Below are positions 3,531 through 58,239 of a stretch of DNA of 64,000 nt, piece by piece. This DNA comes from Bythopirellula goksoeyrii (lineage in GTDB: Bacteria > Planctomycetota > Planctomycetia > Pirellulales > Lacipirellulaceae). The DNA lies in assembly GCF_008065115.1 (NCBI RefSeq), contig NZ_CP042913.1, positions 3,879,658-3,943,657 of the forward strand. The letters are read 5' to 3'. How positions within the stretch are numbered: position 1 is the first letter of the stretch; each line of letters opens with the position of its first letter. The translations under genes and the position numbers were made by a program. A model generated the notes under the pieces. That model worked only from the letters and a program-made list of their open reading frames with translations. It was not told where the DNA came from and did not search any database.

Positions 3531-6500
3531 ATGTCAGCACTTCGAAACCCATTCGTCGTAGCAAACTTTGCTCTGCTCGCTATTGTGCAATGGAGCGGAC
3601 TATCGAGTGTCGTCCAGGCAGAACCCAACGAGCTTGAGGTCAAATCATGGGTCGAGCAACTAGCCAGCAGTGACTTCCAAGTCCGAGAGGCCTCGACAGA
3701 GAATCTAATCCAGTCTGGTCGCAGCGTTATCCCGGCGGTCCGCGACGCAGCTTTGTCTAACGATCTCGAAGTAAGTGACCGAGCCTGCCAAATTCTTATT
3801 CGGCTCTATGACTCGGCGGACGAGCGGACGCATCTACAAGCACGCCAAGCGTTGCAGCAACTGGCTGAGTCACAACACGGCAGTGCCACAGTGGCCAGGG
3901 ACGCCTTGCAAGAGGTCTTGGCATGGATCCAGCGTCATTCTGGAGAGTACGACGTGGACATGACTCGTCCAGATCACCCAGTGGTCGTGGTGCGTCTCGA
4001 TCGCACGCGCGGAATTGACCCCGGTTTTTCTGGTGATGGAATTCAAAACGCGGATCTGGCGAAACTTCAGAAAGTGCGGGAGATACGCGAACTTACGCTT
4101 GAGAATCGGACCACGATGACGGATGAAGGCCTTCGGCATCTCGGAAGGTTAAAGCAACTTACTTCACTCAACCTGCGTCGAACGCAGATCAGAGGCAGCG
4201 GCCTGGCCCACCTTGCCGAGTTGCCAGAGTTACAGACCTTAGATTTGGCGTACTGTCGCAATCTCGGCGAGAACGGAATAAAGACGATTAAGAAACTTTC
4301 GCATCTGACGTCTCTAAATCTCGACGCCACCTCAAACAGATGGTCACACGACGACATATGGCAGCAACATATTCGGAGTTGCGTGCATGAAAAGTTTTTG
4401 CCGTTAAAAGACCACTCGCTGAGAGAGCTTGCAGAACTCAGAGGCGGAATAACTGACGAGGGCCTCCAGCACATTTCGGAAATGCCCGCCCTGAATCGGC
4501 TCTCGCTCGTTTCGTCGCGCATTACTGACTCCGGAGCTAAATCAATCGCAAAACTACCAAACTTGGAATGGCTTGACGTTAGTCGCACTGCAATTACCGA
4601 CGTAGGGGTCGAATCGATTGCTGACATTCCGACCCTCAAGGCACTGCATGTCAATTTCGTACCTATTAGCGGCGCAGGTATTGTCCGATTGGGGAAACTT
4701 GCAGACCTGAGAGAGTTGGGTTTGAGCGGCACCGTAGTTACTGCTGCGGATCTTGAGAAGCTTCAAGGACTCAAGAAGCTAGAGAGGATAGATCTAGCGT
4801 CAACCAGGCTCTCTGATGAGCTGGTTGAAGTATTGCTGGGATTTCCTGATCTTTGCGAGGTTAACCTTGCGAACTCAAAACTGACATTCAAGGGAGTTGC
4901 CGAGTTGGCCGAGAAGTCCACAAACATCGATTTGACGCAGGCACTTATTGCGGCCGGTTGGGGGAAGGTCTACGAGGCAGGAGTGCTGGAATCGCTTGAC
5001 CTCAACTACCAACAGTTGACAAACAGCGATCTGGCCCAATTGGAAGGCCTGAAAGATTTGAAATACCTTTCGCTCAATCGAACTCAGATCTCCGACGACG
5101 GGCTCCAATCGATTGGCAAACTGGACAATCTGGTGAGTCTCAGCCTCGCCAGCACAAATATCACGGATGTCGGAATATCGCATCTGAAGAATCTTATCAA
5201 ATTGACCCGTCTAGACTTGCACGGCACGAAAACTACCTTTGGCGGCGTGATCGATCTGTTAATGCGGAGCCAAGGACGTACCTTACGCGAGGCAATCAGT
5301 GTGGCCCGCATGTCGCGGCGGGCTGACGCACAGGGATTAAAACTTGATCCAGAGTTCGTGGACTTACGAGGCTTTCCGGTCACGGACGCTGACTTGGAAG
5401 CATTGGCAACCTTGAGCACGCTGGAAACACTGTTCTTACTGGGCGATTCTATTACAGATCAGGGGATCGCGCAGCTTACCCCTCTGGAGCATCTCAAACA
5501 GTTGTGGATTAGCGGCAAACAAATCACTGGCCAAGGCTTGGCAACGCTCAATTCGCTGAAGCATTTGGAGACGCTTTGGTTCACTGACACCAGTGTGACG
5601 AGTGACGATTTGGTTCACTTGTCCGCCTTGCCTCACTTGAAATGTTTGAACCTGAGTGGGACCCGACTGACGCCCCATGTCGTGGAAACTCTCTCGGAAT
5701 TTCACGCATTGGAGCTGTTGATTATCGACAGCCTTGCCATCTCTGACGAGGATGTCACGCAGTTGGGACTGGCCAATCCAGCCCTTTCAGTCGTCCAGAG
5801 TCAAAAGCGAGCCCTGGAAGCGGTGCGGGCAGAAGCGCAGACTATTCATAGGATGTCCGATCCGAGTTTTTCACCGGAAAGGGCAGTAAATGTCGTTGTG
5901 CAAGAACATCCCTTAGTCACAGATTTTGGATCGCAGTATTTCGAACAGGCCGTCGAGCTGAATTGCGGCGTACTGCCCCTACTGCCCAGTCGCTGGAAGG
6001 AGCTTGCGACGTTGACAGATGTATTGCTTCACGGCGTAAATCAACCGGCCGCTGCAATGCGCGTCCTGCCTGAACTCTCCCAGATAAAGAAGGTCTCATT
6101 ATATCGAGCAAGAGTCACCGACGCAGACCTCGTGCACCTAGGTAAGGTCACGTCGCTCGAAGATTTAGACCTGCAACGCACCCTGATTACCGACGTCGGT
6201 TTTGAGCATCTTCGGAATCTAAAACGACTGAGATCGCTGTCCGTAGGGGGCTATGGAACCGAGATCCACGATCCAGGAATGAAGTTCCTAGCAGAACTGA
6301 ATCAGCTGGAGTCGTTGTCGCTGTATCGAACCAGTATCAGCGACGCTGGACTCATCCATCTTCGAGGCCTGAAGCATCTCAAGGGTTTGGTCCTGGGCGA
6401 AGTCAAGGTAGACGAGGGACTGACCCATCTCAGCAAGCTGGAAAACTTGGAGACACTTGACCTAAGCTCCACGAAGGTCACGGACGCCAGCTTACGCTTC

Positions 6501-8135: not shown

Positions 8136-10562
8136 CTACTCCTGCTCATCTCGCAAAACTTGCTTTTCTTTGTATGACTTAAGTACCTCTTCCAATGTTT
8201 TCCTATTGCGGACAGGATTCAGAGCGATCGCCTTAGCTAAGTGTTCTTGAGCCTTCACGAAATCTCCCTTTTCGGCATACGCCGCCGCAAGATTCTCAAG
8301 ACCTATACTACTCTTCCAATTGGTAAGTTCACATGCTTTGGTGCCTAACTCCACCGCCCTGCTGCCATCACGATATTTCTCATCAGGGCATCTTGCGTAG
8401 ATCCAGTTAAGGTAAACATAGGCATCGACATATTTGGGGTCGAGGCGAATGGCTTCCTCGAAGTCGGCGATTGCGTCGTCGTATTCCTGCATGAGCTTCC
8501 ATGCAGTTCCTCGGGTGTGGTAAGACGCCGAGGAAGGATCGAGGCGAATGACTTCATTGAGGTCAGCGATGGCCTTGTCGAATTCTCCCTTGGCACCCCA
8601 TGTAGTTGCTCGGCTTCGGTAAGCATCTGTAGAGCTCGGGTCGAGGCGGATGGCTTCGTTAAGATCGGCGATGGCCTTGTCAGCATCTTGCCTGGCAACC
8701 CATACAGCTCCTCGATTAAAATAAGCCTTAGAGTCATTCGGATTGAGGCGGATGGCTTTGTCGAGGTCATTTATAGCTTCACCGTATTCTAGCTTGCCAC
8801 GCCATGAAGCTCCTCGATTAGTATATGCGTTGGCATTTTTTGGATCGAGGCGGATAGCTTCATTGAAGTCGTCGATGGACTTGTCGTACTCTTGTTTGGC
8901 AAACCAGGCAGCTCCCCGATTAGTATATGCACTGGCATATTTCGAATCGAGGCGAATGGCTTCGTTGTAGTCATCGATAGCTTTGTCGTGCTCTCGCAGT
9001 TTGAACCATGCGGCTCCTCGGTAGAGATAAGCTTGAGATTGAATCGGATCGAGGCGAATGGCATCGGAGAAGTCTGCGATGGCCTTTTCCCATTCTTGCT
9101 TGGCATTCCAAGCAGTTCCTCGATTGTAGTACGCGGATGAATAATCCGGATCGAGGCGGACAGCTTCACTAAAATCGTCGATCGCCTTGTCATACTCTCG
9201 CTTGGCAATCCATGAAGCTCCTCGGTTCGCATATGCTTTGGCATCTTTTGGTTCGACGCGGATGGCTTCATTAAAGTCGTCGATGGCCTTCTCGTACTCT
9301 TGCTTGACTTTCCAAACAGCTCCTCGATTGTTGTAGGCTGCGGCATAGTTTGGGTCGAGTCTAATGGCTTCGCTAAAGTCGTGAATGGCCTCATTCCATT
9401 CCTGCTTTGCCACCCAAGAGGATCCGCGATTGTACTGAGCAATCGAATCCTCCGGATCTAGGCGGATAGCTTCACTAAAGTCTGCGATTGCCTTGTCCCA
9501 TTCCTGTTTAGCACTCCTTGAAGTTCCTCGACCTCTGTAAGCGAATGAATCATCCGGATCAAGGCGAATGACTTCGGTGAAGTCATTTGTGGCCTTATCC
9601 CATTCTTGCTTGTTACCCCATAAACTCCCACGGCACTTGTAAGCGTTTGAATGATCAGGGTCTAGTCTGATAGTCTCGCTAAAGTCTTCGATTGCCTTGT
9701 CGTACTCTCGCTTAACGTTCCACGCAACTCCCCGACTGTAGAAAGCGTTTTTATCACTTGGATCGAGGCGAATCACTTCTGTAAAGTCAGCGATGGCTTT
9801 GTCATTTTCTCGCTTGTAACCCCATGCTATTCCTCGATATGCATAAGCCGACGAATTATCCGGATCGAGGCGAATGGCTGTACTCAAGTCGTCGATGGCC
9901 TTATCCGATTCTTGTAAGGCGAGCCAAGCATTTCCGCGATTGTAGTGTGCAATGGAATCATCTGGATCGAGGCGGATGGCTTCACTGAAGTCCGCGATAG
10001 CCTTTTCATATTCTTTCTTGGAAGCTAATGTAGCACCTCGATTGACGTAACTGTTTGATCTATTCGGGTTGAGGCGGATGGCTTCGTTGTAGTCATCGAT
10101 AGCTTTGTCGTATTCTTGCTTGGCAGCCCAGACATTTCCTCGACTGGAGTAAGCAATTGAATCGCTTGGATCGAGTCTTAAGGCTTCTTCGGAATCCGCA
10201 AGTGCATTATCTAATTCCCCTAGTGCACGCCACACACACGCCCGCCCGATATAGAGCCGTGCAGAGCTTCGATTGTTCTGAATCAAAGAAGTGAGTTGGT
10301 CGGCGGCTTTGCGGTTCAGCGGTATCACATGCGACTTATGAAGCCAGCCGGAGCTGCTGTAGGTCAGCCATAGATCATCGCCATTCACTTTCTGAACCTT
10401 CAGAGTCAAGCCAGGCCAAACAGTCTCAACGTGTTCGGATTCGCCACTAAGATCCGTATTGTGAATAACTACGACCATATCACCGGAGTGATACTCTTGA
10501 GCGAGTACGCAAGGAGAGCCAAATGCTACACCAAGAACGATAAGAATAAACAACTGACGCAT
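8136..10562 (-). CDS. secreted SH3-like plus 20-TPR protein
   Basis: The 808-residue product starts with a signal peptide (MRQLFILIVLGVAFG, cleavage near VLAQ-E), followed by an SH3-like beta domain (residues 22-85, ending GWLHKSHVIPL). About 20 tetratricopeptide repeats of 34 residues follow, each built on YxNRGxAWxAKQEYDKAI and DFxEAIRLDP. Repetition is strong at DNA level with a 102-base period. I choose the ATG at 10562 because AAGGGG lies eight bases upstream; an ATG seven codons earlier has no such site. TPR arrays mediate protein-protein contacts, and the same domain order is frequent in planctomycete exported proteins. Partner and location (periplasm or surface) are inferred. Confidence 0.88.
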   Translation of the reverse strand: MRQLFILIVLGVAFGSPCVLAQEYHSGDMVVVIHNTDLSGESEHVETVWPGLTLKVQKVNGDDLWLTYSSSGWLHKSHVIPLNRKAADQLTSLIQNNRSSARLYIGRACVWRALGELDNALADSEEALRLDPSDSIAYSSRGNVWAAKQEYDKAIDDYNEAIRLNPNRSNSYVNRGATLASKKEYEKAIADFSEAIRLDPDDSIAHYNRGNAWLALQESDKAIDDLSTAIRLDPDNSSAYAYRGIAWGYKRENDKAIADFTEVIRLDPSDKNAFYSRGVAWNVKREYDKAIEDFSETIRLDPDHSNAYKCRGSLWGNKQEWDKATNDFTEVIRLDPDDSFAYRGRGTSRSAKQEWDKAIADFSEAIRLDPEDSIAQYNRGSSWVAKQEWNEAIHDFSEAIRLDPNYAAAYNNRGAVWKVKQEYEKAIDDFNEAIRVEPKDAKAYANRGASWIAKREYDKAIDDFSEAVRLDPDYSSAYYNRGTAWNAKQEWEKAIADFSDAIRLDPIQSQAYLYRGAAWFKLREHDKAIDDYNEAIRLDSKYASAYTNRGAAWFAKQEYDKSIDDFNEAIRLDPKNANAYTNRGASWRGKLEYGEAINDLDKAIRLNPNDSKAYFNRGAVWVARQDADKAIADLNEAIRLDPSSTDAYRSRATTWGAKGEFDKAIADLNEVIRLDPSSASYHTRGTAWKLMQEYDDAIADFEEAIRLDPKYVDAYVYLNWIYARCPDEKYRDGSRAVELGTKACELTNWKSSIGLENLAAAYAEKGDFVKAQEHLAKAIALNPVRNRKTLEEVLKSYKEKQVLRDEQE

Positions 10563-10819
10563 AGCGAACCCCTTGCATTGCATTCGGAACAGTTGCCGAA
10601 GTAGGATTTTTGCTTGGTATATTCACCCGATTGTAGATGCGGATTGTTTCACGGTCCACATATTCGAGTCAAATTCCCCGCCCAGGCGAAAATGCTAAGG
10701 AATCTGCACGTATCAGCACGTAGAAGTCCTGGGATGGGTGCAATTAAAATTGAACCAACTACGCCACGTCCCACAGGATTACCTGGCTTGCCTCCTTGGC
10801 ACCGACCAAATCTAATCCT

Positions 10820-14284: not shown

Positions 14285-14400
14285 CGGTGGGATCCACCTC
14301 TGCGGCAAACGACGCTTCGCTCGAGCGAGCGGTTGATGCAACTTCAGCGAGTTCCAGCGAACGCGAATTGACAGAGGTGGTGACACTCCAGCAGGTTGGG
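14285..14400 (+). repeat. dispersed hairpin repeat, copy 1
   Basis: This gap between the GH16 gene and the histidine kinase holds ATCCACCTCTGCGGC, then the hairpin CGCTC-gagc-GAGCG, then GGTTGATGCAACTTC. That is the same order (paired segment, then GATGCA) as in the other copies listed. Boundaries are approximate. The rest of 14186-14524 shows nothing else. Confidence 0.5.
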
Positions 14401-16919: not shown

Positions 16920-17015
16920 CGAGTGTGCGTCTGGCGAATTGAGCCAACCCATGTCGGTTGATGCAACCTCGCTCATTTTGCAGGTCGCCAAACTGATGGA
17001 GGTCGTGCACCCCCG
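16920..17015 (+). repeat. dispersed hairpin repeat, copy 2
   Basis: The 549-base gap between the histidine kinase and the ECF sigma factor contains a well-preserved copy: a GGC/GCC pairing near 16932-16946, then GGTTGATGCAACCTCGCTCA (16956-16975), then GTCGCCAAACTGATGGAGG. The second half matches the copy near 41,420 over about 55 bases with few differences. The remainder of the gap (16670-17218) shows no gene; the long minus frame across it reads like noncoding sequence. Confidence 0.6.
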
Positions 17016-26540: not shown

Positions 26541-26665
26541 TGCAGAAGTTGGACCACCCGACCGGAGTTGCGCTCGTCGCAAACTCGCATCGGTATCCTG
26601 CTGGGAAACATACCGCTGTAGTATGTAGAAGGCCTTCGCCGCCGCGGTCAATGCATCCTGCTAGA
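26541..26665 (+). repeat. dispersed hairpin repeat, copy 3
   Basis: In the 441-base gap between the kinase and phosphatase genes lies GAAGTTGGACCACCCGACC, then GGAGTTGCGCTCGTCGC, then the palindrome GAAGGCCTTC, then GGTCAATGCATCCTGC. The order matches the copies near 34,480 and 40,080. No gene is visible in 26292-26732. Confidence 0.6.
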
Positions 26666-27629: not shown

Positions 27630-28245
27630 TCCATGAATAATTCGCGTGAGACGGCATACGTCGCTACTGTTCGCGTTATTCCTTGCGGGAACGACACGAG
27701 AGCTTTTTGATGGCTAAGTTATTTTCGGCAACGGACTCAAAGCTGATGGACATGGCGACGACTCCAGGCCGTCGGCACGTGCTTTCGTCGCAGGTTCCAC
27801 CAGCCGATGGCCTCGATCGGCCTCCTGCTGAACCTCCTGTCGTTCTGTGATGAGGTCAGGCAACTTACGCTAACTGCACAGATGTCCCTATTTTAGTCGA
27901 GAAAATGGCGATGAGTGCGAGCTGGCGAGCGGGCTAACTTGCTGAGACTGATGCATCCTGAGTGAGTGGGCAGTCGCCTATCTGAGCGAAGTCGAATTCA
28001 CCTCTACAGCCAAACGATCACTCCCATTCCAGTTGAGAACTGACTCCGATGCGGGGTAGAACATTCTATGAGGGTGTCTCAACCGGCGCCGATTCGATGG
28101 TAATCTGGAACTGTGATTGATGTCATGGGCTTAGAAACAGAGTGCTGCCAAGATATTGCCGTAAGTAGACTAAAGTCGACGAGTGCCATCAAACTAAGGA
28201 TTAGTGAAATCAAGGGACGCACTTAAGCCGTCGCCGCTTGGAGCA
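27630..28245. other. 616-base gap, no clear gene
   Basis: A 46-codon frame at 27710-27850 (MAKLFSATDSK start) exists but has no strong ribosome site or family. The motif AGGCAACTTACGC near 27856 also occurs near 7533, another small intergenic repetition. Nothing else is supported. Confidence 0.35.
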
Positions 28246-30975: not shown

Positions 30976-31058
30976 GCCAATTGACGGAGGTCGCGCCACC
31001 GCCAGCAATTCGGCAATTTGCAGCGGCGCAGCGGATGGACCACCCGACGTGATTTAAC
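30976..31058 (+). repeat. dispersed hairpin repeat, copy 4
   Basis: TTGACGGAGGTCGCGCCACC corresponds to the CTGAACGAGGTCGCGCAC block, and GGATGGACCACCCGACGTG corresponds to the TTGGACCACCCGAC block. It lies between the truncated GlsB-like gene and the UPF0158 gene. Boundaries are approximate. Confidence 0.5.
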
Positions 31059-31114
31059 AGAATTGGCTAAGTACAGAGGAGTCCTTCGAGATTGTCCACC
31101 GCTGCGCCTGAGCT

Positions 31115-31600
31115 TCACTTCCACTCTGGTTCGACACCGTGCTCACGCAAGAACTCCTCCGCCAACTGCTGGGTCTTTCGCTCACGGTAATCATAGAATG
31201 CGTGGACAATCCTGTCGTCATTCACTGACTTCTTCCACCCACCGATGGAGCCGGAATAGGCGATTCGCGCCCTTGTATGGTCTTCCATATTCTCAGTCCA
31301 ATCTGAATCCAGGAATTCCCGCAGAAGCTCGTGATGGTCACCGTGATCAAGACCAGGAATCTCAAGGTATTGCTGGGGAGAGGCGTTAGTACGTTCGCGA
31401 AGGGTGCTGTTCTCCTCGGGAGAAATGCCTGCCTCCATGTACGCATCTTCATCGTTCTCGTAAATCCATTCGACCTCGCCGGATTCTAAATCAAGGTAGG
31501 TAGATATTGGACAGACATCTTGAAAGTCCACGTCTCGTTCAAACGCCATGCTGAACATCGTCTGATCAATGATTACTCGTCGCAACTGCGAGTGTCCCAT
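31115..31600 (-). CDS. UPF0158-family protein
   Basis: The 161-residue protein contains ISTYLDLESGEVEWIYE near the N-terminus, YLEIPGLDHGDHHELLREFL in the middle and KTQQLAEEFLREHGVEPEW at the end, the order of conserved blocks in UPF0158 (PF03682), a soluble family of unknown function. I choose ATG 31600 (MGHSQLRRVIID) because family members begin close to this motif and GGGAG lies upstream; the frame is open for 16 more codons. It follows the acidic protein at 31668-31976 closely on the same strand, so the two are probably one operon. Confidence 0.7.
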   Translation of the reverse strand: MGHSQLRRVIIDQTMFSMAFERDVDFQDVCPISTYLDLESGEVEWIYENDEDAYMEAGISPEENSTLRERTNASPQQYLEIPGLDHGDHHELLREFLDSDWTENMEDHTRARIAYSGSIGGWKKSVNDDRIVHAFYDYRERKTQQLAEEFLREHGVEPEWK

Positions 31601-31976: not shown

Positions 31977-32582
31977 TGCAATTACCTCGCAAATTGGTTT
32001 CGCTGGATGACAAGTAGTTTAAACGGGATTGTACCAACTTCGGAGGTGAATAGTCACAACTCCCACCGCCCGCAATTTCCCGCATGCTCAGCGGCTAAGG
32101 GCTCGACTGGTTTCAGCAAGTCATGCCACTGAGGTTGCCCACCGGCGGCGACCCCTCCGCAGTTTAGCCGGGAGGCGTCACCCCGGCCGGATTCTACGCC
32201 TGTCGGAACCTACGGCGGCAGCATGGGCACTCGCCGTTAAAGCCGTGTACTAGCGCGGTGAATGCCGTCGGCTGGGGCAGCGACATGATCGCTTTGAAGG
32301 CAAGTGGGTCCCGGTGGGCGTAATGCCGGTAGGTTACGCCTCCTAGGCTGGACCGAAAAAGGCCCAGTCCTGACGTTGCCGGTTGGCATCTGATTGTATT
32401 ATTACCGGCTCATGTACCGGAAAGCAGTACTTTGGGTGTTTAGATCGTCTTGTCCACAAATGGATTGATATTGCTGGACAATCAAGCGCAAAATGAACGC
32501 CTGGAGGGGATGGTCATCAGGCCAACTCTCAATAGCGATTCCGCCGCAGACGAACCGGAAGACCAGCATTTTGAGTTCTCAA
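31977..32582. other. 606-base GC-rich gap with hairpins
   Basis: The part from 32130 to 32400 is clearly richer in G+C than the flanks and has no open frame over its length. A strong hairpin (arms GGCTGG-ACC and GG-CCCAGTCC around GAAAAA, about 32345-32370) is present without a T tract. It could be a structured RNA or a decayed gene. CCACTGAGGTTGCCCACC near 32127 faintly resembles the dispersed repeat. Confidence 0.35.
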
Positions 32583-34409: not shown

Positions 34410-34560
34410 ACTCCACCGCTGCATCCTGAAGAACTCTCGAACTGAACGAAGTTGGACCACCCGACTGAAGTTACGCTCGACGCCAACTCGCAGAGGTGTA
34501 CTTTGACACCGCTGCGCCTTGGAAGAAGCTCTTCCAGCGATCGGTTGATGCAACTGATGC
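34410..34560 (+). repeat. dispersed hairpin repeat, copy 5 (reference copy)
   Basis: The most complete copy fills most of the 441-base gap between the zf-TFIIB gene and a sulfatase. In order it has CTGCATCCTGAAG, CTGAACGAAGTTGGACCACC, GACTGAAGTTACGCTCGACG, GCAGAGGTGTAC, the perfect hairpin TGGAAGA-AGC-TCTTCCA (34520-34536), and GGTTGATGCAACTGATGC. The copy near 40,080 has the same hairpin stem with a changed loop (ACC). Confidence 0.65.
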
Positions 34561-36396: not shown

Positions 36397-36678
36397 ATGG
36401 CCGATGATTGGCTTGTTGCAGAACTTGCTGTTGCCGAGAAGTATCGCAGCACTATTTCTGCAGAGGTCTACCACATTTGGTCCGATGGAATGCGAAGGCT
36501 GCAGCAGTGTGGTCTCGGCGAGGACACCTCTTGCAGTTCACCGAAAAACTTAGCCGCTGAGAATGATGTATCCGACGCGGCTTCGAGTGCCCGCGAAATG
36601 CGAGCGGTGGGGGCGACCGAAGCAGGTTCTTCGGAAGAAACATTGCCCGGCGGAAGCGTTTCAAAAACGGACGTTTGA
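36397..36678 (+). CDS. doubtful hypothetical protein
   Basis: An open frame overlaps the end of the sulfatase gene and continues to 36678. From ATG 36397 it would give a 93-residue, Ala/Glu-rich product starting MADDWLVAELAVAEKYRST. No ribosome site or domain is recognised, and antisense frames are equally open. I list it only because the sequence from 36397 has protein-like composition. Confidence 0.22.
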   Translation: MADDWLVAELAVAEKYRSTISAEVYHIWSDGMRRLQQCGLGEDTSCSSPKNLAAENDVSDAASSAREMRAVGATEAGSSEETLPGGSVSKTDV

Positions 36679-38071: not shown

Positions 38072-38160
38072 GGTGAAATCGACCTCGTTCAGTTTGTGGT
38101 CCCTTGAAACGACAGCGGGTGGAGTAACTTCGCTCGATTGGCCAGTCACCGAATTGATCG
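38072..38160 (-). repeat. dispersed hairpin repeat, copy 6, reversed
   Basis: Read on the minus strand, this segment in the gap between the propeller gene and the sulfatase gives CAATTCGGTGACTGGCCAA, CGAAGTTACTCCACCCGC and CACAAACTGAACGAGGTCGA, matching the CTGAACGAGGTCG and GAAGTTACGCTCG blocks. Copies therefore occur in both orientations. No gene is seen in 37971-38323. Confidence 0.5.
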
Positions 38161-40024: not shown

Positions 40025-40145
40025 CAGCGATTGGACCACTCGCTGCGAGTTTCGGGTGGAGCTAAGTCGCTGAGATCTGTCGCAGATCGAGACACCTCCG
40101 CGCATTGGAAGAACCTCTTCCAGGGGGCTGGCAATGCATCCTCGG
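40025..40145 (+). repeat. dispersed hairpin repeat, copy 7
   Basis: In the 532-base gap between the sulfatase and the phosphodiester glycosidase lie GATTGGACCACTCGCTGCGA, GAGACACCTCCGCGCAT, the perfect hairpin TGGAAGA-ACC-TCTTCCA (40106-40122) and GGCAATGCATCCTCGG. It aligns with the copy at 34,410 across the hairpin and the GATGCA block. Nothing else is supported between 39743 and 40274. Confidence 0.62.
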
Positions 40146-41219: not shown

Positions 41220-41349
41220 GGGGTGTTCCCTATGCGAATTGTCGAGCCATGGCAATTTAACGATTGCAGCTCCTAAGTTCAATATACGCACCTGTTCCAA
41301 CTTTGTACTCAATCATGATGCCGTGAGACGCGTCGCCAGGAGCAGCCTT

Positions 41350-41475
41350 GGATGCAGAGGTGTCTCCCGAAAAATGACACCGATGCGCCTCAGGCGAACC
41401 GCTACGGCGCTGAGAGTGATGCATCCTCGCTCAATTAAACGGTCGCCAAACTGAACGAGGTCGCGCACAACGAGT
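41350..41475 (+). repeat. dispersed hairpin repeat, copy 8
   Basis: Upstream of the phosphodiester glycosidase gene, this copy has GATGCAGAGGTGTCTCCCGA, the hairpin CGCC-TCA-GGCG (41386-41396), GTGATGCATCCTCGCTCA and CGCCAAACTGAACGAGGTCG. The last part is nearly the same as copy 2 at 16,960. The rest of 41220-41616 shows no gene. Confidence 0.62.
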
Positions 41476-45414: not shown

Positions 45415-46032
45415 TCACTCGACCAGAGGCGGCGGCTTTGCCAGCTGCGCAATGCGGTCGAGAATGTCTGCGAACAATCGCCTTGGCACCGCCACCTCGG
45501 TCAGTTGAAAGAACACTTACTTCGAATGCCGCGTCACCTTGGCTCCGATCTTCACCAGCTTTTCCCGCAGCGTCGTCAGCGACCAGTGCTGAAATGGTTT
45601 CGGCAGTGCCAACCGCCGCAGAAAATTCGCCAAGTTGTACGCCAAGGCAAACAGTTGCAGGCGCGTCTGGTTGTACTTGAACGTGCGGCAGGAGAGCTTC
45701 GTCCATTTGACGGCGTTCTTGCCTTCCTTGATCCACTGCTCCCCCGTGCCGCGACCGTTGTAGAATTGCACCACATTCTTGGATTGTTTGCTCAGGTTGG
45801 TCACGATGAACCCAACGCGTGAAAACAATTCGCCAGCGTGCCATTCGATCTTGGCGACCACGCGCCCCGCTCGCTCCCACGACTTCGCTTGATACTGGAA
45901 ACTGTGATAGAAGACCTTCGGCTTGTGCGACGGACGGCCCACGGGTCGGGTTAGCAGATGCTCGATTTCCCGCTCCAGTACGAAGTTGGACTTGATGCGA
46001 ATGGTGTATCTCAGATTGAGACACCTCTGCAA
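45415..46032 (-). pseudogene. IS1380-type transposase, C-terminal half, broken
   Basis: The frame read leftward from about 46017 gives RYTIRIKSNFVLEREIEHLL, VVAKIEWHAGELFSRVGFIV, YNGRGTGEQWIKEGKNAVKW and LQLFALAYNLANFLRRL, all hallmarks of IS1380-family (DDE group 1) transposases. The catalytic E lies in GRGTGEQWIKEGKNA. It is only the C-terminal ~200 of about 450 residues. A TAA at 45517-45519 interrupts it after TRHSK; in the same frame the family ending FQLTEVAVPRRLFADILDRI continues to TGA 45415-45417. Immediately upstream the frame hits a stop and joins dispersed-repeat and intron sequence, so the N-terminal half is absent. Confidence 0.8.
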
Positions 46033-46067
46033 CTTCGGAGAAGCCCCAATTCAACGCGGACCAGGTG

Positions 46068-46140: not shown

Positions 46141-47478
46141 TCATGGTTTCACTGCGTGACGAAGCTGCGAGCGAACGGCGCGCGCCGGAGCAAGCGGGTA
46201 ACGACGGAGCAATGCGCAGAATTTCTGCCAGTGCATCGAGCGGATGTTGTTGCGGCGGTTAAGCCACTTACGCCATCGGTTCTCGACTTCTTGGCGAAAC
46301 CGGTTCATTGCTTCCGAGTTCCCTGTAACTCCGTAATACGCATAGTGTCCACGTAGCTTCTGGTTGAGCTTTTGCTGCTGCTCTGCAAGCGACAAGTGTC
46401 GATTGTCGTGGCACCATTGATCGATGCGACGAACAGCGCGGGTGAAACGATCCGTGGCAGTCTTGAGCTTGACCACCCAATAGCCCTTCAGGGATTTCGC
46501 CCAGTAGTGGGTGAATCCAAGCAGGTCAAACGTGCCAGGACGATCGTCGTCCTTCGTCCGTGAAGACGGGGGACGGAACGATATAAGTTTCGTCTTGGTC
46601 GGGTGGACAGTCAGCCCATACTTACCAAATCGTTTCGGAAGGACTTCCAGCACGCGTTCAGCATCGCGAGGATCGCAAAAGCCGATCACGAAATCATCCG
46701 CATAGCGGATGAGGAAAGCCTTCCCACGCAGGCGGGGCTTCACTTCTTGTTCGAACCAGAGGTCCAGCACGTAGTGCAAGAACACGTTCGAAATCAAGGG
46801 AGAAACAACACCACCCTGGGGCGATCCAGAGTCCGGGTAACTGACGTTACCATCTTCCATCACGCCCGCTTTCAACCACTTGTCGATCAGACGCAGCAAC
46901 ACGCCATCACGCACCCTCTGTCGGAGAAACTGCCTGAGATGTTGATGATCCAGATTATCGAAAAACTTCCGGATATCGACCTCCAAAACTGTCACGCCCG
47001 TCCGCCGATGGCGCATCGTCTGGTCACGGAAGGAACTCAATGCATCGTGTGCCGAGCGGCCACGTCGAAATCCGTAGGAACAGTCCAAGAAGTCCTGCTC
47101 ATAGATCGGATCCAGTAACATGACCACCGCACGCTGAAGGATTTTATCCTCCAGCGTGGGTATTCCGAGCGGACGAGTCTCCGTGGTGGAGCCGCCTTTC
47201 GGAATGTGCACTCGTCGCACAGGAGGAGCCTTATAGGTGCCGGACTTCGCGCGGTCGAGCAGGCTTTGAAGGTTGCCCTCCAAATCCTGTTCATATTGTT
47301 CCGCGGTCACTCCGTCGACACCAGCAGCACCGTCCTTACGCGTGCATCGATAAGCATCCTTTAACCAGTCAATGTCCATCAGATAGGCGAGCGAAGTGAA
47401 GGCCATCTCTGAAGACCGTCTCGCCAACGCTGCTATCCGTCTCTGTTTCGTGTACACGTCTATCGAATTTCGAGGCAT
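46141..47478 (-). CDS. ltrA: group II intron reverse transcriptase/maturase
   Basis: The 445-residue protein has reverse transcriptase blocks RPLGIPTLEDKILQRAV, CSYGFRRGRSAHDAL, VLEVDIRKFFDNLDH, GSPQGGVVSPLISNVFLHYV and the catalytic YADD (259-262) in FLIRYADDFVIGF. The maturase (X/GIIM) domain covers about 330-430 (LNQKLRGHYAYYGVTGN, WLNRRNN). There is no HNH endonuclease, as in several bacterial intron classes that home to nicked or single-stranded DNA. It assists splicing and copies the intron RNA into DNA. Length and motifs are intact, so the protein may be active even though its surroundings are degraded. Confidence 0.93.
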   Translation of the reverse strand: MPRNSIDVYTKQRRIAALARRSSEMAFTSLAYLMDIDWLKDAYRCTRKDGAAGVDGVTAEQYEQDLEGNLQSLLDRAKSGTYKAPPVRRVHIPKGGSTTETRPLGIPTLEDKILQRAVVMLLDPIYEQDFLDCSYGFRRGRSAHDALSSFRDQTMRHRRTGVTVLEVDIRKFFDNLDHQHLRQFLRQRVRDGVLLRLIDKWLKAGVMEDGNVSYPDSGSPQGGVVSPLISNVFLHYVLDLWFEQEVKPRLRGKAFLIRYADDFVIGFCDPRDAERVLEVLPKRFGKYGLTVHPTKTKLISFRPPSSRTKDDDRPGTFDLLGFTHYWAKSLKGYWVVKLKTATDRFTRAVRRIDQWCHDNRHLSLAEQQQKLNQKLRGHYAYYGVTGNSEAMNRFRQEVENRWRKWLNRRNNIRSMHWQKFCALLRRYPLAPARAVRSQLRHAVKP

Positions 47479-48080
47479 TCGTCGTGTTTCTCAAAAACGG
47501 TTCCATGATTCGACGTCTCGCTTCCCTCCACTGGCTCCAACAGGGTGAAGTTCGCCAGTTTCAACGGTACTATCAAGACGCTATGACTTCCTGCTACCCA
47601 TCTCGCCGCACTTCGTTTCCTTCGCTTGGCGATACCTCGGTTGCACTCGTTCTCTTTCGCTCCTTGACGGACGAGTAAGCCGCCAAGGCCTGGAGTTGGT
47701 AACCCGGTGTCTCCATCCGGGATGTTGCCGAGGAAGCAACAGGATCTCCCAAGTTCCTGGGGAACCTCAATCATCCGTTTGCACATGTTCCAAACCGACG
47801 CCGGCAGGACTGCTTGCACCAGACCATACAGTGCAGCAGCGTGGCCCTTGGTCATCAAAAGGCAAAGGCTCCCACGATTGGGTCTTTCGACGCTCAATAG
47901 CATGGCTTTCGGACTCGCTGCGGGCACCGAGCGGAGCTTGGTCGGCTTCGCAGAGCCGGTCACCCGGCACCACGCAAAACTCGCTTCCAGTTGCGGGTCA
48001 GGCTCTACTGGACGGGGTTCTCACCCGCAAGGTTCCGATGAAAGGTTTCAAAGTTGTACTTTACATCTCATTCCCCCTTC

Positions 48081-48155
48081 CCAAGCTTTGCTTGGCGCAA
48101 CTGATGCAACCTCTTTCAGTTGGCCCATCGCCGAACTGAAGGAGGATGTGCAGAC
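48081..48155 (+). repeat. dispersed hairpin repeat, copy 9, at intron edge
   Basis: The copy has the hairpin CCAAGC-TTT-GCTTGG (48081-48095), then CTGATGCAACCTCTTTCAGT, then CATCGCCGAACTGAAGGAGG. It sits directly outside the proposed 5' end of the group II intron. A further fragment (GACACCTCTGCAACTTCGG near 46020) lies at the other intron edge. The gap to 48465 contains no other gene. Confidence 0.6.
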
Positions 48156-57564: not shown

Positions 57565-58239
57565 GGCAACGGTAAATAACGGCAAATGACGACTGTTTTT
57601 CGGAGCTTTCTTCTCAGGCAAAGCTCTCGGGAGAGCCCGCGTCGATCTGCTACGCCGTGGATGACACAACTTAGCGTTGCGCCCACATGTCGAATCGCAA
57701 TTTGCAAACAACCGCCAGTATCCCGCACGATAACGTCCTAAATCATGCGCACAGTTGTCTGGGCAGCCCCTGCTCGTCCGATGCACGCCCTGGTGGGTGA
57801 GGACATTTCTGCACCATGTTTCTCACAGCGCGACCAATAAGATTCCCTGTGAGCGCACCAACTAGAATTGAAGGTGCCCAGATCATCGCCCAGATGGCAG
57901 CAGCGATCAATGCAACCGCTGTCAGTTTTGTGGGAGTGAACTGTGGCCAGTGAATCGACCGCCGACTAGGGGAATTGCAGTTTCTTGCTTCTGGCCATTA
58001 GCCAGCACCCTCTTACTCGCAAGCGTTGCAAATCCTGCAGCCTTAATAATTTAGCACGACTTCGCACGAACCAAGTCGCAGGCACTTCTCTATTACGGGA
58101 GTCCGGTGGCATCATTTGCGTGAGATGGACAATGCGTAGCGCTAGAGGTGCAGATCTCTCGGTCGTTATGTCCAAAGCCGTTAACTGTTGTCTGCGAGTT
58201 CAGCATTGTTGACGTGCGTCTTGAAGTCGGGCGCTCAAG
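57565..58239. other. 675-base gap with a hidden membrane-like frame
   Basis: On the minus strand 57910 (TTG) to 57743 encodes 55 residues: a membrane-like segment IAAAIWAMIWAPSILVGALT, then GRAVRNMVQKCPHPP. The frame stays open upstream of 57910 without ATG or GTG. It may be a short gene with a TTG start or the end of a broken gene (a frame starting MARSKKLQFP near 58000 stops early). The rest of the gap shows no gene. Confidence 0.35.

Follow-up and report, generated by a model that had tools for sequence, protein, structure and literature searches.

A dispersed planctomycete repeat family probably derived from a mobile element with a divergent tyrosine recombinase

Features of the window and copies of the repeat

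The window, that is, the whole stretch of 64,000 nucleotides of Bythopirellula goksoeyrii DNA that was analysed (contig NZ_CP042913.1, positions 3,879,658 to 3,943,657, forward strand), contains copies of a dispersed repeat, fragments of a recombinase gene, a group II intron, and protein-coding genes in the intervals (Table 1). The ten interval proteins tested include sulfatases, a phosphodiester glycosidase domain protein, a PP2C phosphatase, a type II/IV secretion ATPase, and a histidine kinase, and are encoded in both orientations. The repeat unit reads GTTGGACC...GATGCAnCC and its commonest length is exactly 109 bp. Many copies align without gaps across the 109 bp, from GGACC to GATGCAnCC. 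The stretch 34,410-34,560 holds one copy, which measures 102 bp by model R1 and has a central linker seven bases shorter than that of the 109-bp form.

At an equal threshold, core-site profiles match the window 34 times and its reversed sequence 4 times, with several matches per site, two profiles, and both strands counted. Together with an R1 score of 93.8 bits at 34,410, this places the dispersed structured repeat family proposed in the first-pass annotation above chance. Weak profile matches at 1061, 14289, and 17423 were excluded from the list of sites. About nine copies had been proposed; the family is present in the window, but at more than nine sites. The block TTGGACCACCCGAC, which had been described as shared by the copies, has exact matches only at 26549 and 34452.

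Table 1. Coordinates of the repeats and associated features (window positions unless a locus is named)
Feature	Position	Strand	Details
815-aa protein, almost wholly TPR repeats	8139-10583		DNA period 102 bp
Core site, TGATGCA	14321..14353	+	box 14334; profile score 33.7
Core site, TGATGCA	16946..16978	+	box 16959; profile score 26.5
Repeat copy	26550..26658	+	box 1 26550, box 2 CAATGCA 26649; R1 67.7 bits
Recombinase gene fragment, query residues 2-58	27670..27840	-	65% identity, one stop, E 5.9e-13
Core site, TGATGCA	27936..27968	+	box 27949; 106 bp from N-terminal recombinase fragment; core-site profile
Weak repeat copy	31036..31138	+	box 1 31036; R1 22.6 bits
Recombinase gene fragment, query residues 318-376	32197..32373	-	83% identity, E 2.9e-29
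Repeat copy of the finding	34453..34555	+	box 1 TGGACCA 34453-34459, box 2 TGATGCA 34546-34552; R1 93.8 bits
Repeat copy, left half decayed	36465..36573	+	box 2 TGATGTA 36564; R1 57.4 bits
Weak core site, TGGAGTA	38107..38139	+	box 38120; profile score 11.9; inside copy earlier called reversed (repeat D4)
Repeat copy, cleanest core site of window	40032..40141	+	box 1 40032, box 2 CAATGCA 40132; R1 79.9 bits
Repeat copy, left half decayed	41320..41426	+	box 2 41417, then extra arm pair to about 41468; R1 69.4 bits
Partial repeat copy	45973-46060		close to the opposite side of the group II intron; profile E 3.9e-8
Group II intron	46141-48100		Rfam RF02005 75 bits; reverse transcriptase and maturase domains
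Core site, TGATGCA	48089..48121	+	box 48102; directly adjoins group II intron end; core-site profile
Solitary core site, CAATGCA	57895..57927	+	box 57908; core-site profile
Segment A, small integron	L017 12253-16011; L021 5389-9147		intI on same strand as attC-like sites
Segment B, Tn5/IS50-type insertion sequence	L025 6809-8447; L021 around 3650-5290		inside box-1 site both times

Distribution in the genome and in related Pirellulales

The covariance model R1 was based on 16 copies and a structure written by hand, and its match threshold was E<=0.1. On the 6.47-Mb genome it gives 61 matches, which were merged by hand into 44 distinct places, of which 27 score at least 35 bits. Owing to the near-palindromic form of the unit, R1 matches both strands at many of these places. 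Further copies elsewhere in the genome are therefore present, as the first-pass annotation expected, but they do not reach the hundreds that it extrapolated. Half of the places (22 of 44) lie within 3.86-4.38 Mb, 21 of those 22 on the plus strand. Seven of the 44 are in the window, which is a repeat hot spot. The mostly intergenic placement noted at the outset is upheld. Occurrence in related Pirellulales was found in 22 of 59 genomes; the per-genome counts were made with stricter filters and a limit on the number of candidates scored, are lower bounds, and include some places counted on both strands. The family had not been recognised as a known one, and searches of the open literature, judged by titles and abstract openings and with subscription papers and preprints outside their scope, found no description of these repeats or of the recombinase described below.

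Boxes, arms, and hairpins

For the statistics of boxes and arms, 62 copies of exactly 109 bp were picked from 13 genomes, and removal of near-identical copies left 58. In the genome of the window, 18 of the 25 R1 matches of at least 41 bits are exactly 109 bp long, a proportion that is biased upward because R1 was trained mostly on such copies. Conservation in the 58 copies peaks at two 7-bp boxes and their flanking 13-bp arms. Box 1 is TGGACCA in 49 of the 58 copies, and box 2 is TGATGCA in 28, CGATGCA in 12, and TGAGGCA in 6. The arms are inverted on either side of each box, with a consensus of about nCCnCnGCGAGTT. The best-preserved core site of the window, at 40032, reads AAGTCGCAGCGAT TGGACCA CTCGCTGCGAGTT. 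Sites of tyrosine recombinases, such as loxP, FRT, and lambda att, have inverted 13-bp arms around a centre of 7-8 bp, and the 13-7-13 geometry of the repeat looks like that of such core sites.

The four hairpins quoted in the first-pass annotation were located at 34520, 40106, 48081, and 41386, but they are not one conserved part of the unit. The hairpin CCAAGC-TTT-GCTTGG at 48081 recurs beside four other copies of the group II intron and is thus assigned to the intron. A structured RNA or a transcription signal maintained by hairpin selection would explain the hairpin potential of the folded copies, and also the 14 pairs with double changes, compared with 8.3 in shuffled alignments, a value that 0 of 500 shuffles reach. 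However, covariation in the 58 copies amounts to weak helices, the RNAalifold consensus has five pairs and -0.42 kcal/mol, and an Rfam search of the window gives no match at the repeats, its sole match being the group II intron; the repeat ends are also common to a recombinase gene. The arms of box 1 have a mean identity of 5.38/13 to the partner arm in the same copy and of 5.30/13 to the arms of other copies, and for box 2 the values are 6.14/13 and 5.66/13. As the arms match their own partners hardly better than those of other copies, the near-palindromes fit inverted protein-binding arms better than a selected RNA hairpin. The modest covariation, the weak helices, and the arms that barely track their own partners do not bear out clear selection on the hairpins, and an RNA or transcription signal is extremely improbable.

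The recombinase element

Among the homologous segments that end at boxes (see below) is a unit of about 1.35 kb, bounded by a box on each side, which is present in the genome of the window and, in several copies, in Aeoliella straminimaris (G033). The order of this element is TGGACCA, recombinase gene (antisense), TGATGCA, and it encodes one protein, of 376 aa as the frame is listed. The PHROG_1 integrase family matches the protein with E 2.7e-21 and 3.7e-23. In Pfam, PF02899 is reached at the cut-off, and PF00589 scores 15.8 bits, below its cut-off of 27.1. The AlphaFold2 model, made with 23 sequences, has a mean pLDDT of 64 and reaches confidence in the first 100 residues alone, the catalytic domain being weakly modelled; compared with the PDB by Foldseek, this model has tyrosine recombinases at all of ranks 1-17. 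Profile-profile comparison with IntI covers only the N-terminal two thirds, at 75% probability. By family profile and fold, the protein is a predicted divergent tyrosine recombinase.

The catalytic positions, assigned by eye, comprise a conserved K, an R (in KDLRKT), GH, and two candidate tyrosines, while the position of the first catalytic His has a Lys or Ile-Lys context. The Arg I position (YGVDTGT), also assigned by eye, is Asp in all 23 aligned members. The integrase of CTnDOT, as described in PMC8138268, is likewise without Arg I and uses another arginine. The dN/dS ratio of the recombinase is 0.025-0.082 in six of ten pairs, and dS is saturated in the other four. No intact recombinase was found in the genome of the window, where one copy lies in two frames and two fragments lie in the window. 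Recombinase frames free of stop codons occur in A. straminimaris, Bythopirellula polymerisocia Pla144, and Botrimarina colliarenosi.

Searches of public genomes gave 55 recombinase loci, all but two of which are labelled Planctomycetota; the two others are metagenome-assembled genomes labelled Opitutaceae and Acidimicrobiaceae. The more distant recombinases lack boxes of the kind described here, but at L220 and L222 (uncultured Planctomycetaceae) each of the two copies in one genome has a nearby palindromic site that is similar in form, with the centre CGACCAG/CTGGTCG, perhaps from a sister element with other sites.

Association of the recombinase with the repeat

The close clade of the recombinase (at least 78% identity) is represented by 13 distinct full or nearly full copies. 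In 12 of these, at least one flank has a box no more than 120 bp from the gene, and in seven both flanks do. Boxes were scored at 37 of the 55 public loci, the 95th percentile of random segments being 7.1 (n=71). Loci of at least 75% identity have a 5' box in 12 of 14 cases and a 3' box in 10 of 14 (score >15), compared with 1 of 23 on each side for the remaining scored loci. The left 75 bp of three elements, placed in register with the 109-bp copies, show a mean identity of 0.54-0.56 (0.26 when shuffled), and the right 45 bp show 0.48-0.52, the shuffled null having been made for the left end only. Owing to this in-register similarity of its ends to the element, the 109-bp unit is read as a miniature derivative. 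The earlier suspicion of a MITE-like repeat was near the mark, although the ends are those of a tyrosine-recombinase element.

Recombinase genes, fragments counted, occur in 12 of the 59 Pirellulales genomes. They are present in six of the eight genomes with at least 10 repeat matches and in six of the 51 others (p=0.00047; p=0.0017 without the genome of the window, and p=0.0049 within the family). Repeats without a detected recombinase occur in 14 of the 22 repeat-bearing genomes, including G028 and G035 with at least 13 matches each, and recombinases or fragments without repeats occur in G008, G010, G025, and G056. A further 16 genomes were chosen from the 55 loci, and R1 matches were found in six of the eight with a recombinase of 72-83% identity and in none of the eight with one of 52-69% (p=0.0035); these matches are weak (26-44 bits) and may include ends of recombinase elements. 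The two best Phage_integrase genes among those listed for the genome of the window (C1:1532088 and C1:325668) are both more than 200 kb from any R1 place, and a 224-aa Phage_integrase gene at C1:4331434 adjoins a weak R1 place (20.4 bits).

Gene-bearing segments between boxes

An all-versus-all comparison was made of 80 loci of at least 5 kb (1.47 Mb). Homologous segments end at a box in both copies in 13 of 106 testable cases, and 0.7% of the sequence is equally near a box. One of the 13 cases is an insertion sequence and two are group II introns, and the rest are not all independent. Segment A is a 3,759-bp stretch that is letter-for-letter identical at two loci 2.07 Mb apart, the identity stopping at both boxes. 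Segment C comprises 6.5 kb with an ORF of 1,899 aa, is common to Bythopirellula polymerisocia Pla144 (G004) with 91.0% and 86.3% identity in two blocks, and also ends at boxes. Every copy of segments A and C has TGATGCA as its left box and TGGACCA as its right box, and the flanking 109-bp units differ. The segments thus run from TGATGCA to TGGACCA and the elements from TGGACCA to TGATGCA, so that the two site types alternate. Strict alternation in the window is broken by many decayed sites. The pattern of segments A and C would be the expected outcome of two exchanges between sites with equal spacers, a route that is discussed for single dif modules in PMC13141974. The identical copies of segment A, an integron, imply recent movement, and with the recombinase copies found in this genome broken, help in trans or a recent loss must be assumed.

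Arrays on one strand are found in other genomes: G035 has four repeats with a spacing of 1.0-2.3 kb, and G018 has five at 2.0-3.4 kb, with one to few ORFs per interval. The genes flanking the site at 57908 have homologues that are 154 kb apart in B. polymerisocia, and between these homologues lie at least eight R1 places, all on the plus strand, from 404,814 to 557,279. Synteny with B. polymerisocia around this site continues rightward and is absent left of gene X in the stretch examined. A base-exact empty site was sought in B. polymerisocia and not found, the intergenic DNA not being conserved. This case of split neighbours is suggestive of module movement. No target-site duplication was seen flanking the aligned copies, and the left and right boxes differ.

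The element and its miniatures could also be real without any module system, the intervening genes having been moved by homologous recombination or gene conversion between repeats. Repeat copies do provide similarity on both sides of a segment, and only two gene-bearing segments without a close-clade recombinase, A and C, were seen to have moved with both ends at boxes. Yet in both cases the difference between the flanking 109-bp units and the stop of identity at a 7-bp box leave little homology for such a process, and the one-strand arrays of other genomes also speak against it. This explanation is considered unlikely, and movement of modules by site-specific recombination is preferred.

Segment B (1.67 kb, 99.6% identity, two loci) was rejected as a module, being a Tn5/IS50-type insertion sequence. 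It shows the apparent 9-bp duplications TTGGACCAA and TTGGACCAT and apparently targets the recombinase site. Five copies of the end sequence of the group II intron were compared in this genome, and in four of them (window, L122, L116, and L020; L123 is unclear) only a few bases separate a box from the intron end, so this intron also seems to target the core sites.

Integrons and the attC question

The first long ORF of segment A encodes an integron integrase (TIGR02249, 475 bits, cut-off 265), and inside the segment attC-like sites of another type, GCCTAAC...GTTAGAT and relatives, were recognised by eye. In G016, intI and an array of attC-like sites lie between two repeats, with R1 scores of 21.2 bits on the left and 13.4 bits on the right, and the right-hand repeat carries GCAGCGGTTGGACCATCC. 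In G015, a repeat (30 bits) adjoins intI on one side. As integrons with attC-like sites of their own are bracketed by repeats, the integron is the cargo in these cases. The intI loci of G011, G022, G029, G044, and G058 have no repeat at the R1 threshold, some of these loci being cut by contig ends. The attC-like sites of L148 and L149 in G016 (CCTAACCACCGGCTGCAG...) resemble those in the genome of the window, which suggests, from sequence resemblance, cassette exchange across genera. Genome G011, which has no R1 matches, contains a different near-palindromic repeat of 127 bp (L152 13313-13432 and 19193-19319), one copy of which adjoins an integron integrase.

The R boxes of attC sites are RYYYAAC and GTTRRRY. 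That the repeats themselves are attC sites, and their arrays cassette arrays left after loss of the integrase, was an early favourite. Integron integrases adjoin repeats in G000, G015, and G016, the sequence GTTGGAC fits GTTRRRY, and the arrays are on one strand. The idea was dropped, however, as the bracketed integrons of G000 and G016 hold attC-like sites of another type (recognised by eye). Only 43% of the 58 copies have T directly before the TG of box 1, box 2 is TGATGCA or a variant, and another recombinase carries the repeat ends. Integron integrases (E<=1e-60) occur in eight of the 59 genomes and do not follow the number of repeats (p=0.71 for at least 10 repeats, p=0.34 for any). A strict R''/R' pattern with at most one mismatch gave no match at 11 intI loci, and this pattern is too strict, as attC-like sites were later seen by eye. 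The attC explanation is largely refuted and very improbable.

Proposed origin and mechanism

The repeats probably stem from a planctomycete mobile element with a gene for a divergent tyrosine recombinase, and represent recombination joints as well as non-autonomous miniatures of that element. The observations on which this is based are the geometry of boxes and arms, the constant distance between box and gene, the co-distribution of recombinase and repeats, and the module ends at boxes. The case for the repeats as derivatives of the recombinase element is strong, and a module-exchange mechanism is likely. Genes lying between joints, and at some loci an entire integron, seem to have been moved as modules.

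The recombinase would bind the 13-bp arms and exchange strands across the 7-bp box, with binding and catalysis, as well as the recombination intermediates and direction, being presumptive. Elements and gene-bearing segments would alternate along the chromosome. As the two boxes have different sequences, each is expected to recombine with a box of its own kind. This would allow the stretch flanked by two elements to be swapped as a module with no duplication of the target, a route considered for dif modules.

It is tentatively proposed that, with integrons and dif modules as the first two, these repeats mark a third natural system of gene cassettes. It would consist of planctomycete chromosomal modules with two alternating kinds of core site and a self-mobile recombinase without Arg I, and its cargo, which would also cross between genera, would include single genes, genes for giant surface proteins, and complete integrons. 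If true, this would explain some of the shuffling of accessory genes in planctomycetes and provide a relocation route for whole chromosomal integrons, with cassette-type shuffling by a different recombinase. The spread of integrons and large surface-protein genes in the phylum becomes directly testable, and the box with its arms serves as a marker to find such modules.

Comparison with known systems

Like integrons, the present system has one-strand arrays of gene-bearing segments between repeats, a tyrosine recombinase, and the capture and shuffling of genes. It differs in having a recombinase that belongs, by profile matches, to an unrelated branch, in lacking attC-type R boxes, and in carrying whole integrons as cargo.

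MITEs and REP sequences are likewise short, intergenic, and nearly palindromic, with ends common to an autonomous element. Their autonomous partner is a DDE or RAYT transposase, whereas the partner here is a tyrosine recombinase, no target duplication is seen, and the repeats would function as joints.

Tyrosine-recombinase transposons such as Tn916 and CTnDOT are not expected to produce target duplications. They share the integrase-type enzyme, and the CTnDOT integrase shares the missing Arg I (PMC8138268). In contrast, the present element has a single gene, conserved boxes, multi-copy miniatures, and cargo that lies between elements and not inside them.

The closest analogue of the repeat-bounded modules is provided by the dif modules of Acinetobacter plasmids, in which XerCD acts on pdif sites with a 6-bp spacer and distinct XerC and XerD arms, according to PMC13141974. 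In both systems, gene modules are bounded by core sites of the tyrosine-recombinase type, two kinds of module must alternate, and exchange takes place, or would take place in the present case, between sites with identical spacers. Insertion sequences that target pdif sites are known (PMC10132070), and one site-targeting insertion sequence was observed here. The arm consensus nCCnCnGCGAGTT is unlike the pdif arms printed in PMC13141974. The system described here also differs in that its spacers are 7 bp long and of two conserved kinds, with arms that are alike on the two sides, and it is chromosomal, with its own recombinase, itself such a module, in place of the host XerCD.
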